Assembly: GCA_947302765.1 (NCBI GenBank)
Contig: CAMYWN010000006.1
Span: 1 to 33,811 of the forward strand
DNA: 33,811 nucleotides
Direction of reading: 5' to 3'
From: an uncultured Candidatus Saccharibacteria bacterium
GTDB lineage: Bacteria > Patescibacteriota > Saccharimonadia > Saccharimonadales > Saccharimonadaceae
Shown: positions 6,762-33,811 of the stretch, piece after piece
How the letters are laid out: every line of letters begins with the position of its first letter
How positions within the stretch are numbered: the stretch's first letter is position 1
Program-made: the position numbers and the translations under genes
The notes under the pieces: model-generated
Database searches by the model: none
What the model was told of the DNA's origin: nothing
Seen by the model: only the letters and a program-made list of their open reading frames with translations

Positions 6762-9700
6762 ATGGAAGCAAAGTGGAGGAGGATGCGAAAGGGGGTACTT
6801 GGGGGATGTGTGGGGGTTGTTGCTGCAGTTTGTTTGACGGTTACCCTGTCGGGAGGCGAGAGAGTGATGGCACTGGCAGGGGTCGGGGAGTCGAAAACAG
6901 TATGTGGAGATATTACAAATAATGCTTCAGATAAGACAAAGGTGTATAATCCTTCGTTATACGTTGCCTGTACTCAAAGGAATGTAGATAAAAAAACTGA
7001 TTACGGAGCGATTTGGTTGGGTAATATGAGGAAGGATAGTCGCGACTATTTATCCGCTAAGGTGTCAACTGGGGTTGTTGATGAAAATGGTCAGATGGAG
7101 GTTTTTTTGCGTGGAGCGGTAATGGGGCCTAATGGTGCTCCTGCAAGCGATAATCAATCTTTAACTGGTTCTGCGCAATGTATCAAGATATATGTGAAAC
7201 GGGGCGGTAAAACATATGAGCCATTTAGCTTTAGTAATACTGTATCGGATATGATTGATGAGAGATGTGAGCTAAAGCGTGGTGAGCAAATTGTTCAGAC
7301 ATACAAACCTAATTACATTCTAAGAAGACAGGCGAATCCTGATCCGTTTAAGCTTGATGGGAATGGCAATGGGATTAGATTTGGTGGGACAAGGGTGTTT
7401 GTGGATTTTTCAAAACTGGAAAACACTCCATGGGCGACAATAGAGAAGCGAGATGGTGGATTTATTGAGTTTAATGAGGCTAGCGTGACTATACAGAGGT
7501 GTTTTGGTACAGGGCGAACATACGGTACGGCTGAAGAAAAGGCTGCCTGTAGGTCTGAGGACTCCGTGGTCAAGGTTTACGGAAATTTGATGTCGGCAAA
7601 ATCGACTGTGTCGGGCGGCGGCAAGACGATGAGTACGGGCGAGGTAACCCAATCAACAGCATTTGCGGGCCCACTGATTTTAGACGGTTGCGAAAATGGG
7701 TGCGACGTTACTTTTACACATGAGATTAAGAAGAAAAATAGTTTTCAATTTAATCAGAGTTATTATTATTGGATTAAAAATGGTATAAACCGCCAGCATG
7801 TTGTTGACTCTAGTCTTATTGAGGGAACAGATGAGAAGACTATTGAGCCCGGCAATATGACATACAATAAGACTGTTAAGTTGTACCCGGGTGAAATCTA
7901 TTGCAGTAAGATGGACTATGGTATAGGAAAAGATTTGAATGATAAGGGAACTATTCGGAGCACTAGTGTATGTGCGGCGGTAAAAGGAAAATTGAATACT
8001 GCAATTAGCCTAGATGTCCAACGACAAGAAGGAAGTAAACTTGGAATGTCTGGGATAATCAATAAAAGTGGTACTAATTCTATCTATGTTCAGCCAGGTA
8101 GGTTTGAGGTTGGATCGACGGTAACAACGAATGTTCAAAAGGCATACAACCTTAGTTTGAAACGAGTTGCGATAGATGGTAATTTACTTACTCCTGATTT
8201 GGAGAAAAGAGATGTGACTTTGGCTAATCGAGTGCTTAATAATTTTAATTGGAGTAATACGGCGAAGGTTACGATGCGCGAGATAGATGAAAATAAGGAT
8301 GAAAATAATAAAGTCCTATATGATAAGGATCTGATGAGTGAAGGATATCTTTTAGGGGGTCGATGCTATAATCCTGATTTTAAAAGAAGTGAGCTCGGCG
8401 AGGACTGGATTTGTCATCTTCAGGGTGAATCGGTGAATTTTCAAGGGCCTGGGCATACGTATGAGTTAAGTGGACGAGTTAATGCGAGTGATAATAGGTC
8501 GGTGCCGGGATCTGTTGAATTTGAGAATGTGAGCAGTGTTGGCGGTATTTATCTTAGAGCCAATATTGGAACCGAGTTGGTTTCTAATAACCTGAGTGTC
8601 AAGGTGCCGTATAATTTTATGAATTCGACTTGGGTAGAAGGAGACGGAATGAAGAATATTGAGCTTGAGTCCCGTTTTGACGTTAAATATTTTGTAAACG
8701 TAGGTGAACGTGAAAATAAGACATTAGGCGGTGATCGTCCGTATGCTACTCAGGTGGATAACGCAAAAAGTGGGGTGGATTGGTGCAAAATAAAGAAGGG
8801 TATTCCAGTTAGTAGTGTTATCGACCTGAATGCGTGTGAGGGTGTTAAAGAAACAGTAACTTATGATGCGGATAAAGATAGAGAAGGAATTCAATTAGAG
8901 ACATTATCCCCGGGTCAGCATGAGCGGTCGGTCTCGATAGAGCAGGAAGACTTAATTAATAAAGGGGTCCAGGTCGGAGATATAATTTGTGCATGGTCGT
9001 GGGTGACTCCGTGGAATTCTTGGGATGATTTACAAATGAGTCATACATGGAATGAGGATGGCAATATTGCTCACTCTTGGGACAATGGAGATTTGAAGAA
9101 TAAGAAGGTGTGCGGGCAGATTGGGAAAAGTCCAACAATTCAAGTGTGGGGTGGAAATGTGCTATCTAGAGGGAAATTGGATGTATCTTCGGTGAAGAAG
9201 AAAACAATTAAAGAAAAAACGCGCCGGTTTGGGTCGTTTGGAGAATTAGGGGTCTTTGCTGGCGATAGTGGCAATTTCGCGAACGGGGCAGCTTTGGGGT
9301 ATGAGGGAATTCATCAGTGGAATGAAGATAGCAAGAATGTTTTGTTGCCGAGTTATCTCGGTAAGAAACAGGGGGATTCAGAAGAAATCGGCGGTGGAAG
9401 TGGGACAAGCATGGGTGAGTTGAAAAATACTTTTGGGATCGACGGAGCAATCAGAGGAATAAAAGATTTTGCGGAAGCGTTAGGTGGGAAGTATTGCGGT
9501 GACAATACTAGTGGATGTTTGGACTCAGAAGAGGGGAGTACAGGTATAGTAGCGGTGAGTACAGATATTTGCGGAGGCGATAACTGCGAAGATAAGAATG
9601 TGGATATTTGTGATGAAAACGGAAACTGCAAAGCTAAGACAATAGTTAGTATTAAGCCTAGAAAGAGTGTGGTGATAGGAAAAGATGACGTAAAAGAATT

Positions 9701-28251: not shown

Positions 28252-29220
28252 ATGATGATAAAGAGAATCAATAAATTATTGGTAGCATTTGGAGTATTAC
28301 TGGCTTCTTTTGTGGGGTTAAGTAATACTTTTGCAGATATGGATGGGATGGACACGGTAATGACGATTTCGCCGCCTAGCCAAAAAATTGTTTTAACTCC
28401 AGGAGAAGATTTTGAAGGGTCCATATCCGTTTCTAGTTCTAGCACGGCGAAGAATGGTCTAAAGTATTCTGTGACAGTTGGTGCGTTTAGTCTTGTAACA
28501 GATGAGAATGGTAACGTAGATTATAATGATGTGGATGTAGATACTGTCACTAGCTTTAACCAAATTATGGAGTGGATTGAGCTAAAGAAAGATAATGGTG
28601 AAGTAGAAATAGGTGGAATAGATACTATTCCTTTCACTATCCATGTACCAGAAAATGCCCCAGCTGGAGGCCAATATGCGACGATTATTGTGCAAAATGA
28701 TACTGGACTAGATAACGCTAGTGGAAAAGGTGTATCGATTGAAAGTAAAGTTAGATTTGCATCTAATATATTCGCAGAGGTGACTGGTGAAACTGAAGAA
28801 AAAGGGGCAATAATAGAAAACAATATTCCGTCCTTCTTACTTAGTAATCAATTAAGCGCGACCTCATTAGTGAAGAATGATGGTAACGTGCACACTGATG
28901 CGGAATATACCTTACAAGTGTGGCCGCTTTTTAGTGATGAAGAGATTTACACTAATGAGGAAGAACCTGAGACTAGTTTAGTCATGCCGGGGACAGAAAG
29001 GTATCATAGCAAGACGATCGAAGGTTTGCCAGCGGTAGGTATTTTTAGGGCAAAACAAACTGTAAAGATATTTGGCGAAACTTCTATTGTGGAGAAAATA
29101 GTAATTGTTTGTCCATTATGGTTGTTATTCCTGATCCTCTTTGTGATTATCGCATTAATAATATGGATATTCACGAAGGTAAAAGGTAACAAAAAGCGAA
29201 ATAGCAACACGACGGAATAG
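28252..29220 (+). CDS. WxL-interacting/DUF916-like surface protein with C-terminal TM
   Basis: Signal peptide; ISPPSQKIVLTPGEDFEGSISVSSSSTAKNGLKYSV, IPFTIHVPENAPAGGQYATIIVQ; C-terminal TM and basic tail; SD AGGAGG. Confidence 0.65.
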   Translation: MMIKRINKLLVAFGVLLASFVGLSNTFADMDGMDTVMTISPPSQKIVLTPGEDFEGSISVSSSSTAKNGLKYSVTVGAFSLVTDENGNVDYNDVDVDTVTSFNQIMEWIELKKDNGEVEIGGIDTIPFTIHVPENAPAGGQYATIIVQNDTGLDNASGKGVSIESKVRFASNIFAEVTGETEEKGAIIENNIPSFLLSNQLSATSLVKNDGNVHTDAEYTLQVWPLFSDEEIYTNEEEPETSLVMPGTERYHSKTIEGLPAVGIFRAKQTVKIFGETSIVEKIVIVCPLWLLFLILFVIIALIIWIFTKVKGNKKRNSNTTE

Positions 29221-29229
29221 AGATTAATT

Positions 29230-29257
29230 AATACCGCCTCTTTCGGGGCGGTATTTT
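29230..29257 (+). terminator. Intrinsic terminator
   Basis: AATACCGCC-tctttcgg-GGCGGTATTTT. Confidence 0.9.
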
Positions 29258-29403: not shown

Positions 29404-29432
29404 TTGACTTTCGGGTGGGGATGAAGTATGAT
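29404..29432 (+). promoter_or_regulatory. Sigma70-type promoter TTGACT-N17-TATGAT
   Basis: TTGACT 29404-29409, TATGAT 29427-29432. Confidence 0.7.
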
Positions 29433-29444
29433 GGAGGTAGAAGT

Positions 29445-29470
29445 GAATTGATAACAATAGTTAACAATTG
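29445..29470. promoter_or_regulatory. Palindromic operator-like site
   Basis: GAATTGATAAC-AATA-GTTAACAATTG just downstream of the predicted start of transcription. Confidence 0.55.
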
Positions 29471-29498
29471 AAAATAGTAAAAATTCAAAGGAGGGAAA

Positions 29499-30374
29499 AT
29501 GAGTGAAGAGAAAATGCAAAAATACAATGGGTGGAAGGTACGGTCGGTGTGGGATGAGGTGCGGGAAGAGTGGTGGTTATCGGTGGTGGATGTGGTGGGG
29601 GTGTTGACGGAGCAGCCTGATGTTAGGGGGGCAACGTTTTATTGGTCTAAGCTGAAGGAGCGATTGCGTGAGGAGGGAGCGGATCAGTTGTTGACAAATT
29701 GTCAACAACTGAAATTAACTTCTTTGAAGGATGGGAAGAAATACAAGACAGACGTCATGACGGTGGAACAGGTCTTGAGGCTGGTGCAATCTATTCCATC
29801 GAAGAAGGCAGAGCCGTTTAAGGTTTGGCTTGCGAAAGTTGGTAATGAACGAATTAATGAGACGATAGATCCGGAGCTGGCGATGAATCGTGCGATGGAG
29901 ACGTATCTTAAGAAAGGATATAGTGAAGAGTGGATACGTCAGAGATTGATGTCAATTAAGGTAAGAAATGATTTAACGAATGAGTGGAGGAATCGTGGAG
30001 TGAAGAAAGGTAAAGAGTATGCGATTTTGACGGATGAAATCTCTAAGGCTTGGTCTGGGATGACGACGAAGGAATATAAGACCTTTAAGGGTCTAAAGAA
30101 AGAGAATTTGCGCGACAATATGAGTGATTTGGAATTAGTACTTACGATGCTTTCGGAGGCTACGACTACGGAGATTGAAAAACAGAAACAGCCGAAAACT
30201 TTTGAAGAACACAGAGGGGTAGCGAAGTCCGGTGGTGAAGTAGCTGGGATTGCTAGAAAGGCAGTAGAAGCTCGGACGGGAAAGAAAGTTATCACATCGG
30301 ATAATGCAGAAAGGCTTAACCCGATGAAAGATTTAATAGAAGGTTTGATTGAAGGAGGAGTAGAAAATGAGTGA
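29499..30374 (+). CDS. Bro-N/DinD-like protein (DNA-damage-inducible protein D / antirepressor family)
   Basis: YNGWKVRSVWDEVREEWWLSVVDVVGVLTEQP, LLTNCQQLKL, SIPSKKAEPFKVWLAKVGNERI, NLRDNMSDLELVLTMLSEATTTEI; SD AGGAGG. Confidence 0.85.
   Translation: MSEEKMQKYNGWKVRSVWDEVREEWWLSVVDVVGVLTEQPDVRGATFYWSKLKERLREEGADQLLTNCQQLKLTSLKDGKKYKTDVMTVEQVLRLVQSIPSKKAEPFKVWLAKVGNERINETIDPELAMNRAMETYLKKGYSEEWIRQRLMSIKVRNDLTNEWRNRGVKKGKEYAILTDEISKAWSGMTTKEYKTFKGLKKENLRDNMSDLELVLTMLSEATTTEIEKQKQPKTFEEHRGVAKSGGEVAGIARKAVEARTGKKVITSDNAERLNPMKDLIEGLIEGGVENE
29685..29711. promoter_or_regulatory. Near-perfect 27-bp palindrome inside the DinD-like CDS
   Basis: CAGTTGTTGACAA-A-TTGTCAACAACTG. Confidence 0.6.
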
Positions 30375-31068
30375 AACTACAAGGTTACTGAAGGGGATTA
30401 TGAAGATGTCGGGGTGGACGCAGGAGCAAGTGGCGATAAAGCTAGGGGTGAGTTATCCGACAATGAATGCTTGGGTGAATGGGAAGTCGAAACCGCGACA
30501 AGCGATGATGAATAAGATACAGAGGTTGTATTTGGCGCAGGATATTACAGATGATGTTGAGCCGACTTACGTGACGTTGGTGAATGTGCCGAGACGATTA
30601 AAAGTGGATGACATGGTGATATTGGAGAAGGACCCTAGTAATGATTATGATGATGAGGCGATTATGGCGGTGATGATGGATGATAATGAGGATGAGTGGT
30701 TGGGAGATGATATTGCTAGCGGTGATGGGGGTGTTAGTGGAACTAGTGAACACAATGATGTTGGTGCGGTAGACGATAATGCCAACCAATCTGAGAATAG
30801 TGATGGCTTGGGTGACGATGAGGATGATGGCCCATTTGGCGGGAGAGTTGCGCCAATAGGGGTGGGGGATATTTCGAAGACGTATTGCTTAGTAGATGAT
30901 TTTATGTATGTGGCGAATTCGATCAGCACAGTGGTGAGGGGAACGAATTCGGCGGGGAGGATTTATGATAAGTTTGAGAGGGCGGCACGAGCGCGGGTGC
31001 TATTTATATTTCATAAGGTAGCGATAGCGAGGGTGGTGGAATGGGATTATGCGGAAGAGGGGGAGTGA
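30367..31068 (+). CDS. XRE-type HTH protein with HIRAN-like domain interrupted by an acidic insert
   Basis: GWTQEQVAIKLGVSYPTMNAWVNGKSKPR (HTH); LKVDDMVILEKDPSNDYDDEAIMAVM and VANSISTVVRGTNSAGRIYDKFERAARARVLFIF (HIRAN-like). Confidence 0.75.
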   Translation: MSETTRLLKGIMKMSGWTQEQVAIKLGVSYPTMNAWVNGKSKPRQAMMNKIQRLYLAQDITDDVEPTYVTLVNVPRRLKVDDMVILEKDPSNDYDDEAIMAVMMDDNEDEWLGDDIASGDGGVSGTSEHNDVGAVDDNANQSENSDGLGDDEDDGPFGGRVAPIGVGDISKTYCLVDDFMYVANSISTVVRGTNSAGRIYDKFERAARARVLFIFHKVAIARVVEWDYAEEGE

Positions 31069-33028
31069 TGCTGGTGTTCTTGCGGTGCAGAAGTGGTTTT
31101 GTGATTCGGTGACGTATGAAGGTGAGCCGTACTCGATAGATTATGAGCAAGCGGCAGCGGTAGCGGATGAATCCTTGAACACGATTGTGGTGGCGCGAGC
31201 CGGGTCGGGTAAGACGCGGACGTTGGTGGCGAAGGTTGTGTACCTTGTGGCGGTGCGGGGCGTAGAACCCGATGAAATAATGGCATTTGTATTTAATGCG
31301 AATGCGGCGAAAGAGATTAATGAGCGACTATCGAAGATGCGGGTGAATGGCGAGACGGTGATTAAGGATGAGGGCGGAAGTGAAGCTATGCGGCGAGATG
31401 GTGATGGCGGTAGTAGAGTAAAAATGAGTAATGATGCTCGGAAAGTGGTTGACGGAGCGATAAGAGATACTGACAGTATGGTAAGAATTGCGAGCACTTT
31501 TCATGCTTTTGCGAGGAAGATAGTGTATCAGGTGTGTAAGGGGGAGAAGAGGTGCGGGAAGATTTTGGCGGGAGAGAAGGAAGCGTATATACTAGAAATA
31601 GTGCGACGGATGATGGATGATGTAGAGTGGCGAGCCAAGATAGTATGGTTCATGAAAGGTCAGGGCGAATTAAGGCCGGTGGGGGAGAGAGGGAGGGTAA
31701 TCGAGGATGCGGTGAAGTTAGAAGAAGAGGAGCTAGAGAGGTTTGCAGCGATGATGGTGCAGTTTGTGAATCGGGCGCAGCAGAAGTATTTGGGTGGCGA
31801 AGTGACGATTAGAGAAGTGGCCGAGGAATACTTGCGTGGGGAGGGGGTGACGGAAAGAGAGAAGGCGTTTGTGGAGCTAGGAGTGGAGGTGTTTCGGAGG
31901 TACCATTGGTATTTGCTAGATGCGAAGCGGGGGCCTGACAGATTCTCAGAATATGGGACGGATTTTAATCTGATCGTGTCGTGGGCGAGTCGGCTGATTG
32001 CGAGCAAGCGGGAAGAGGTAGCGAGACTGCTAGGTGGGAAGAAATATATATTGATAGATGAATACCAGGATTTTTCGCAACTTTTCTTGGCGGCTGTAAG
32101 GGCGATACGGACGGTGGCTGGTTCGGCGCGACTCTTCGTGGTAGGAGATGACTGGCAAGCGATTAATCGGTTTGCGGGGAGCGAGGTGGAGTATTTTAAG
32201 GAGTTTGAGAAGTTTTTTCCTGATAATGTGCGGCGGTATGAGATTACGACGAATTATCGGTGCGACTGCGAGGTGGTAGATAGAGCGCGGAAATTTATGA
32301 TAAAAGCGATGAGTGAGAGGGGTGAGTTTCGGGCGTTTTCACGAAGGATGGGGAGGGTGATAGTGGTGGATCCGAGGGTGACGGAATGTGAGCTGCCGCT
32401 GGCAGTGGATCAGAGGATGATGGGGCGTAGGCAGCCGTCAGTTGTGGGTTTGGGGATGATAGAATGTGGGTTGTTGCCGGTAAAATATGATAAAGGAGCG
32501 AGTGGGCGAGATATGGTGTATGCAGAGATGGTGTGGCGGATGCTGGGGAGAGAACCGAAACGGAAGACGGTGCGGTATGTGAAGACGGTGGTGGAGCTGA
32601 TGCGGGTCAATCGGAAAGCGCGGGAGACAATGTTACTACATAGGAATAACGAGATGAGTTTGGAGGGAGTGAGCCTTGTGGGGCTGGCACGAGGGTTAAA
32701 GTGGGGACTGGAGCAGATGGGCGTGATGAGTATAGAGGAATTTGATGCAAAGGTGCGGGTGATGACGATACATAAATCGAAAGGGCTAGAGGCGGAAGTG
32801 GTGATTATTTTGGAGGCGGATGATGGGGTGATACCAAAATTGCACCCGGATACGCTATTATATGGGATGTTCGGGGAGACTATAGATGTGGCGTTGGATG
32901 ACCAGAAGCGGTTGTTTTATGTGGCGATGACGCGGGCGAAGCGGCGGCTATATATTATACATGACGGAAGCAGCGGAGCGGGATTTGTGAAATATCTCGG
33001 GAGAGGGGTGGAGAGATGGGGCGAGTGA
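31049..33028 (+). CDS. UvrD/HelD-like superfamily 1 helicase
   Basis: VARAGSGKTRTLVAK, ILIDEYQDFSQ, VVGDDWQAINRFAGS, TTNYRCD, MTIHKSKGLEAEVVI, LFYVAMTRAKRRLY. Confidence 0.93.
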   Translation: MRKRGSDAGVLAVQKWFCDSVTYEGEPYSIDYEQAAAVADESLNTIVVARAGSGKTRTLVAKVVYLVAVRGVEPDEIMAFVFNANAAKEINERLSKMRVNGETVIKDEGGSEAMRRDGDGGSRVKMSNDARKVVDGAIRDTDSMVRIASTFHAFARKIVYQVCKGEKRCGKILAGEKEAYILEIVRRMMDDVEWRAKIVWFMKGQGELRPVGERGRVIEDAVKLEEEELERFAAMMVQFVNRAQQKYLGGEVTIREVAEEYLRGEGVTEREKAFVELGVEVFRRYHWYLLDAKRGPDRFSEYGTDFNLIVSWASRLIASKREEVARLLGGKKYILIDEYQDFSQLFLAAVRAIRTVAGSARLFVVGDDWQAINRFAGSEVEYFKEFEKFFPDNVRRYEITTNYRCDCEVVDRARKFMIKAMSERGEFRAFSRRMGRVIVVDPRVTECELPLAVDQRMMGRRQPSVVGLGMIECGLLPVKYDKGASGRDMVYAEMVWRMLGREPKRKTVRYVKTVVELMRVNRKARETMLLHRNNEMSLEGVSLVGLARGLKWGLEQMGVMSIEEFDAKVRVMTIHKSKGLEAEVVIILEADDGVIPKLHPDTLLYGMFGETIDVALDDQKRLFYVAMTRAKRRLYIIHDGSSGAGFVKYLGRGVERWGE

Positions 33029-33183
33029 TGAAGATTAGAGCGCGGGAGGAATTGGACATGTTGCTTGATAGGTTAAGTGCGGATGATGAGGACAAGATGC
33101 TTAGTAATGATGAAATGTGGCGTGGTGTGCGGAAACATATGAAAGATGTGGAGATGCGGAGGGGTACTCGTGTAAAAAAATGA
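33028..33183 (+). CDS. 51-aa hypothetical protein, translationally coupled to the helicase (not in the ORF track)
   Basis: TGATG overlap with the helicase stop; MKIRAREELDMLLDRLSADDEDKMLSNDEMWRGVRKHMKDVEMRRGTRVKK. Confidence 0.6.
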   Translation: MKIRAREELDMLLDRLSADDEDKMLSNDEMWRGVRKHMKDVEMRRGTRVKK

Positions 33184-33259: not shown

Positions 33260-33341
33260 CATATTTTGCCAAGTCAAATTGCCATATTCTGCCAAGTTGA
33301 ATTGCCATATTTTGCCAAGTCAAATTGCCATATTTTGCCAA
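33260..33341. repeat. 23-bp iteron-like tandem repeats, about 3.6 copies
   Basis: CATATTTTGCCAAGTCAAATTGC at 33260, 33283 (3 transitions), 33306, partial at 33329. Confidence 0.95.
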
Positions 33342-33390
33342 ATTCTCTCTATTGTATGGTTTTCATGGTGTAATGCTATGAAGGAGTAAT

Positions 33391-33811
33391 ATGAAAGATG
33401 ATTATTTGCCAAGAATTGTTGATAAGATGGTTGAAAACCGTCTGAAGGATTTTGGAGCAGTTTCCATTGTGGGATGTAAGTGGTGTGGTAAGCCTACTAC
33501 CGGTCGGCAGTTTGCTAAGAGTTATATTGAGCTGCAAAACACAGAAGACAACCAGAATATTCTAGCTGTGGCTGAGAATCAGCCGAGCCTTATTTTGGAG
33601 GGCGATAAACCTAGGTTGATTGATGAATGGCAGGATGCGCCTGGCGTATGGGATGCGATTCGTCATGACGTAGATAAGACTAGGTTGGCTGGTCAGTATA
33701 TTTTGACTGGTTCATCTACGCCGCGCGCAAGGAGGCCGCGTCATTCTGGGGCCGGTAGGTTTGCTCAGATTACGATGCGACCGATGACGCTTTTTGAGTC
33801 TGGTGATTCGA
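33391..33811 (+). CDS. AAA+ ATPase, DUF4143-type, N-terminal part; runs off the window
   Basis: SIVGCKWCGKPTTGRQFAKS (P-loop-like), LILEGDKPRLIDEWQDAPGVWDAIRHDVD, GQYILTGSSTP; SD AAGGAG. Confidence 0.85.
   Translation, partial: MKDDYLPRIVDKMVENRLKDFGAVSIVGCKWCGKPTTGRQFAKSYIELQNTEDNQNILAVAENQPSLILEGDKPRLIDEWQDAPGVWDAIRHDVDKTRLAGQYILTGSSTPRARRPRHSGAGRFAQITMRPMTLFESGDS

Follow-up and report, generated by a model that had tools for sequence, protein, structure and literature searches.

A candidate DNA-end-responsive operon coupling an HTH-HIRAN protein to a UvrD-type helicase in ruminant-gut Candidatus Saccharibacteria

Background

What might a bacterial HIRAN domain sense when it is joined to a helix-turn-helix (HTH) domain and its gene overlaps that of a helicase? 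The question is raised by a 33,811-nucleotide contig (C6, CAMYWN010000006.1, of assembly GCA_947302765.1; this whole stretch is called the window below) from a Candidatus Saccharibacteria bacterium of the ruminant gut, whose genus includes congeners from goat and sheep gut. The source genome (G000) is a 0.92 Mb draft of 110 contigs, 87% complete, and was considered together with 174 further genomes of the genus (175 in all, cited here by G numbers). Three closely packed genes spanning 29499-33028 of the window, preceded by a promoter at 29404-29432, encode a DinD-family protein (gene 1), an XRE-type HTH joined to HIRAN (gene 2) and a UvrD-type helicase related to helicase IV (gene 3); all parts of this set lie on the forward strand.

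The HIRAN domain of HLTF binds the 3'-OH of single-stranded DNA (ssDNA), and an N90A-N91A mutant loses HIRAN function (PMC11237066); prokaryotic HIRAN domains have been called uncharacterised (PMC11090510). Translational coupling of an HTH-HIRAN protein to a helicase gives a sharp prediction of what such domains sense. We propose, with moderate confidence, that the set forms an operon which regulates itself in response to exposed DNA ends. If true, this would be a direct switch from DNA end to transcription in reduced symbionts, a phylum with seemingly few full-length LexA proteins, and the widespread yet unexplained DinD/PDC-S13 family would be tied to the handling of DNA ends. That the genes form a co-transcribed module acting at DNA ends was put forward in an earlier note made from the sequence of the window, and this idea holds.

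The HTH-HIRAN protein and its coupling to the helicase

Gene 2 (30367-31068) was assigned from Pfam, alignments, a PDB profile search and an AlphaFold model. Its HTH domain occupies residues 7-57 (30385-30537; Pfam HTH_3, 1.1e-6; helices at residues 3-57 in the model). The first half of the HIRAN domain, residues 66-104 (30562-30678), contains KDPSNDYDDEAI, aligned to RDPNNPYDKNAI of HLTF so that N92, Y94 and D95 of gene 2 correspond to N91, Y93 and D94 of HLTF. The second half, residues 175-228 (30889-31050), carries the motif VANSxxTVxRGTxSAGRIYDKF, common to single-domain HIRAN proteins of Clostridia, Synergistaceae and Methanobrevibacter. Between the two lies a variable acidic insert (about residues 105-174, 30679-30888) that is short or absent in orthologues and is modelled with a predicted local distance difference test (pLDDT) score of about 50.

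The earlier note had placed an XRE-HIRAN protein in this frame. Homologues and the PDB profile bear this out, but the Pfam model does not reach its cut-off of 24.7 bits: the window protein scores 17.1 and the best HTH-HIRAN orthologue 24.5, the likely reason being that the acidic insert of variable length splits the domain. A single-domain relative from Acidaminococcus that shares both halves is matched by Pfam HIRAN at 35.2 bits (1.1e-8), and the PDB profile search with gene 2 reached lp_0118 (E 5e-6) and the HIRAN domain of human HLTF (E 5e-4). Foldseek with the gene 2 model returned XRE domains first, including DdrO, with none below E 0.001, and matched the HLTF HIRAN structure 4s0n with a probability of 0.82. 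The presence of HIRAN in gene 2 is confirmed by the single-domain homologues and the PDB profile search, and is more weakly indicated by the model. Outside the Saccharibacteria, a contig scan for HTH-HIRAN proteins found HIRAN-only proteins in Firmicutes and methanogens, with no related helicase or DinD gene nearby. The literature searched for PDC-S13, and for HIRAN in Saccharibacteria, yielded nothing useful.

Gene 3 (31049-33028, 659 residues) is, by family models, a complete SF1A helicase with all motifs intact, including VGDDWQAI. Its best NCBIfam match is helicase IV (PRK11054, 164.4 bits), far under the equivalog cut-off of 543, so that its sequence points to a relative of helicase IV, not to a member of that family. 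Where the earlier note had written UvrD/HelD, the UvrD-type half of the label holds, whereas RNA polymerase-associated HelD is rejected (36.2 bits; cut-off of NF041464, 419). Gabija (GajAB) is rejected as well: gene 3 is recognised by GajB profiles (5e-44) in the way of any generic UvrD protein, and the operon has no GajA-like gene. Two longer relatives of the helicase (L095 of G059, 7145-9337; L096 of G005, 7291-9645) carry an additional segment that by eye resembles a restriction-type nuclease (PDFYLP...WEHW) and is absent from the window helicase.

Gene 1 overlaps gene 2 by 8 nucleotides, and gene 2 overlaps the helicase gene by 20. The earlier note had counted a fourth overlapping gene, a 51-residue open reading frame (ORF; 33028-33183) whose start meets the end of the helicase gene in TGATG at 33026-33030. 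This ORF was dropped, having no family match and no homologue in any fetched locus, including that of G236, whose helicase is 84% identical; the overlapping set consists of three genes, not four.

The 18 helicases found in the genus form one clade, and HTH-HIRAN proteins occur in ten genomes, among them G142, in which gene 2 is cut by a contig end; in G203 a remnant is all that is left of gene 2 ahead of the helicase gene. Gene 2 and the helicase gene occur together, adjacent or parted only by gene 1, at seven of the nine testable loci (the window, G236, G306, G229, G285, G240 and G330), compared with about one expected (hypergeometric 3.6e-6 over the 175 genomes, uncorrected for relatedness). 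In six of these seven paired loci the two frames overlap, by 20, 20, 20, 25 and 7 nucleotides, or are parted by a 3-nucleotide gap. Translational coupling of gene 2 to the helicase has been kept across diverged loci.

The DinD-family gene and the shared promoter

Gene 1 (29499-30374) was assigned from Pfam, PADLOC, PHROG and a fold match. The earlier note had read it as a DinD/Bro-N protein, and this reading is upheld: Pfam Bro-N matches gene 1 at 33.6 bits (6e-8; cut-off 25.6) and E. coli DinD at 32.4 bits. PADLOC PDC-S13 matches gene 1 over 277 residues (2e-124), PHROG_15286 matches it at 2e-113, and PDC-S13 models also match E. coli DinD (2e-121 for a sister model, 2e-16 for gene 1's own), the model PDLC04920 matching both proteins. 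A profile built from gene 1 relatives scores DinD at 24.3 bits, compared with 11.3 for the best of 5000 shuffles. Membership of gene 1 in the DinD family, including the C-terminal helical domain of DinD, is supported by these profile matches. The AlphaFold model of gene 1 (pLDDT 84) has a significant match to only one solved structure, DdrC of Deinococcus radiodurans (six chains, E 1.5e-5 to 7e-4, 215-248 columns), with modest TM-scores (0.26-0.40 by query length), and a sequence profile of gene 1 independently reaches DdrC at E 0.003. DdrC, which binds ssDNA by preference, protects DNA, can anneal strands and converts linear molecules into circles (PMC5436757). E. coli DinD inhibits RecA-mediated strand exchange (PMC4129442, PMC4849656) and removes RecA filaments, as do UvrD, Rep and PcrA (PMC4849656).

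The gene 1 family is widespread, with relatives on plasmids, on viral contigs (of which a single-sequence query found none) and in 34 of the 174 genus genomes. Intact copies at this locus number four: those of the window, G306 and G259, where gene 1 precedes gene 2, and that of G229, where it lies between gene 2 and the helicase gene; G201 holds a 122-residue fragment. The four intact copies form one clade (100/98) apart from the numerous other gene 1 homologues, and gene 1 is packed within 25 nucleotides of its neighbours in either gene order. Gene 1 is an optional member of the set. The conserved neighbourhood sought on the strength of the earlier note exists within the genus for gene 2 and the helicase, although even this pair is not strict.

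Upstream, a terminator-like hairpin (AATACCGCC...GGCGGTATT followed by TTTT, 29230-29255, forward strand) separates the operon from a WxL-like surface gene (28252-29220) that is present in 164 of the 174 genus genomes, and a similar hairpin precedes the corresponding position in G306, G259, G163 and G286. The promoter named in the earlier note, TTGACT-N17-TATGAT, is present at 29404-29432. The motif alone (9 matches, against a shuffled expectation of 6.0 +/- 2.0) is not above chance; four relatives, however, have it at a conserved position, two of them with gene 2 first (G236, G271) and two with gene 1 first (G306, G259). G236 shares the promoter and the gene 2 start, with gene 1 cleanly missing. 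One promoter evidently serves the set whichever of the two genes leads.

A variable slot beside the 23S rRNA gene

Most of the loci with enough sequence lie between the WxL-like surface gene and the 5' end of the 23S rRNA gene. The exceptions are the window, whose contig ends before any 23S gene, a helicase of G278 that has no such neighbours, and the helicases of G260 and G277, which are inverted. At least seven genomes have an empty slot of about 200-350 bp. Elsewhere the cargo of the slot includes a PemK-toxin domain (G285), an NYN nuclease (G240, G142), Abi_alpha (G271), an HTH-Mrr-nSTAND protein with a second PDC-S13 protein (G229), the MBL protein PDC-M48B (G331) and Schlafen-AlbA genes. 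Since some genomes have apparent surface-protein genes here or nothing at all, the slot is best described as generally variable, with many genes of conflict type, and its reading as a pure defence island is tempered accordingly. For this genus of ruminant-gut Saccharibacteria, a variable chromosomal site next to the 23S rRNA gene is now mapped.

A slot of this kind could bring genes together by coincidence, with gene 1, gene 2 and the helicase gene as independent mobile or accessory genes that meet beside the 23S gene without joint function. Each of the three does occur separately, and the slot is highly variable or empty; against this, the frames of gene 2 and the helicase gene overlap or abut in six loci, a single promoter appears to serve all, the gene 1 copies belong to a locus-specific clade, and packing stays tight despite the changed gene order. 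We regard coincidence as unlikely.

The conflict-type neighbours suggest that the set could instead be an anti-phage module, in which gene 2 would sense phage DNA ends and would block infection jointly with the helicase and with an effector encoded upstream that can be exchanged (a DinD-like, PemK, NYN, Abi-alpha or STAND-like protein). Defence-type cargo lies upstream in G285, G240, G142, G271, G229 and G331, gene 1 belongs to PDC-S13 and has relatives on viral contigs and plasmids, and a proposal exists that the HIRAN-containing antitoxins of HipA kinases sense the ends of phage DNA (PMC8262856). PDC families, however, are candidate systems only, the slot also has surface-protein or other genes or none, the window's three genes encode no toxin or nuclease domain, and the helicase stands alone in numerous genomes. 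An anti-phage module is a tentative alternative that we consider somewhat improbable. Defence, one of the two roles that the earlier note had named for the operon, is suggested by the conflict-type neighbours, but the slot has surface-protein genes too. A phage origin of the set is rejected: neither the helicase nor gene 2 has relatives in IMG/VR, the helicase gives only generic, partial matches in phage records, and gene 1 alone has viral relatives.

Several other genes in and around these loci may be recorded. In G229, L121 (2482-6486) encodes a 1334-residue protein with an HTH and weak matches to an Mrr-like nuclease and to a STAND NTPase, possibly an unnamed STAND-type defence protein. A 419-residue protein with no Pfam match is encoded before the NYN nuclease gene in the slot of two genomes (L123 of G240, L099 of G142). 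Downstream of the operon in the window are short repeated TTGCCAAGTCAAATTGCCATATT-type units (33265-33345) and the start of an AAA_14 ATPase gene (33391-33811; Pfam 6e-13; PADLOC PDC-S01, 5e-26) cut by the contig end. Farther away, at 396-2360, an elongation-factor-4 (LepA)-like GTPase is apparently split into two ORFs (396-941 and 1032-2360) by a frameshift or an assembly error.

Proposed action and control of the operon

By analogy, all three proteins point to DNA ends or single strands: HIRAN to 3' ends, DinD and DdrC to ssDNA and RecA filaments, and the helicase to unwinding or protein removal. In the proposed self-regulated operon, gene 2 most likely represses the set through its HTH, self-repression being suggested by the encoding of an HTH within an operon that has its own promoter. 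Its HIRAN domain would bind free 3' ends of ssDNA, as might arise at breaks, at stalled forks, on phage genomes or on incoming transforming DNA. Such binding may relieve repression by pulling gene 2 off its operator, may bring the co-translated helicase to the end, or both; recruitment is modelled on HLTF, whose HIRAN does this within one polypeptide. The most economical version has 3' ends do both at once. The helicase would then unwind DNA or strip proteins from it, and gene 1, where present, may bind the exposed single strands or limit RecA filaments on them. The benefit may be repair, recombination control or anti-phage defence.

Several observations weigh against this proposal. No shared operator palindrome was found upstream, and no scanned HTH-HIRAN member reaches the Pfam HIRAN cut-off. 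G259 and G271 have gene 2 without the helicase, and at least nine genomes have the helicase without gene 2, so that neither strictly depends on the other. G306 and G253 carry a broken helicase frame, and the slot also holds apparent surface-protein genes.

The earlier note had described DinD as an SOS-induced family. RecA is present in the window genome, but in G000 (87% complete) and nine of ten relatives a LexA search matched only about 75 N-terminal residues (25623-25847 of contig C1 in G000), a LexA-like DNA-binding domain with no match to the LexA peptidase half; full LexA was found in G306. SOS control in the classical sense is unlikely because most of the searched genomes seem to lack full-length LexA. 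A bolder version of the self-regulated operon is a LexA-independent damage switch, in which the predicted 3'-end sensing by the HTH-HIRAN protein directly derepresses the DinD-like protein and the helicase of its own operon and, in streamlined Saccharibacteria, stands in for the LexA/RecA relay. We consider this version doubtful.

The same activities on 3' ends and RecA filaments could serve in natural transformation, with the set acting on incoming ssDNA and limiting or processing recombination. Saccharibacteria are naturally transformable via ComEC (PMC10633639), and DinD shares with UvrD-type helicases the ability to remove RecA filaments (PMC4849656), but no competence gene is linked to the set, and we judge such a role very unlikely.

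Comparison with known systems

The libraries and literature searched gave no named system that combines HTH-HIRAN with a helicase and DinD, the nearest precedents being HipN, HLTF and DdrO/DdrC. The combination is without a name, and the earlier note knew of none, although gene 1 already sits in a catalogued family of defence candidates (PADLOC PDC-S13) and every component belongs or is related to a known family. Like E. coli DinD, gene 1 has Bro-N and an equivalent C-terminal helical domain, but it is only 22% identical over the aligned part, is encoded with an HTH-HIRAN protein and a helicase, and is not evidently under LexA control. The helicase shares with E. coli helicase IV its best family match and the VGDDWQAI motif, and differs in scoring far below the family cut-off.

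The DdrO/DdrC pair of Deinococcus, in which the repressor DdrO controls the DNA-binding DdrC (PMC5436757), resembles the set at two points, namely the fold match of gene 1 to DdrC and that of the gene 2 HTH to DdrO, although XRE matches are generic. DdrO is relieved by IrrE cleavage, whereas in gene 2 a HIRAN domain follows the HTH. In the HipN (HipS-HIRAN) antitoxins of HipI kinases and in HipL kinases, as in gene 2, a small operon encodes HIRAN together with an attached regulatory domain, and HipN has been proposed to sense DNA ends (PMC8262856). Membership in HipIN or HipL is rejected, there being no HipA-type kinase or HipS match in the operon; in gene 2 the domain attached to HIRAN is instead an XRE HTH, and the coupling is with a helicase. 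HLTF and Rad5, finally, also pair HIRAN with a DNA motor, and the 3'-end residues of HLTF are conserved in gene 2. In those proteins the motor is of the SWI/SNF type, whereas the bacterial set described here divides the pairing between two separate proteins, with a UvrD-type SF1A motor and an additional HTH.

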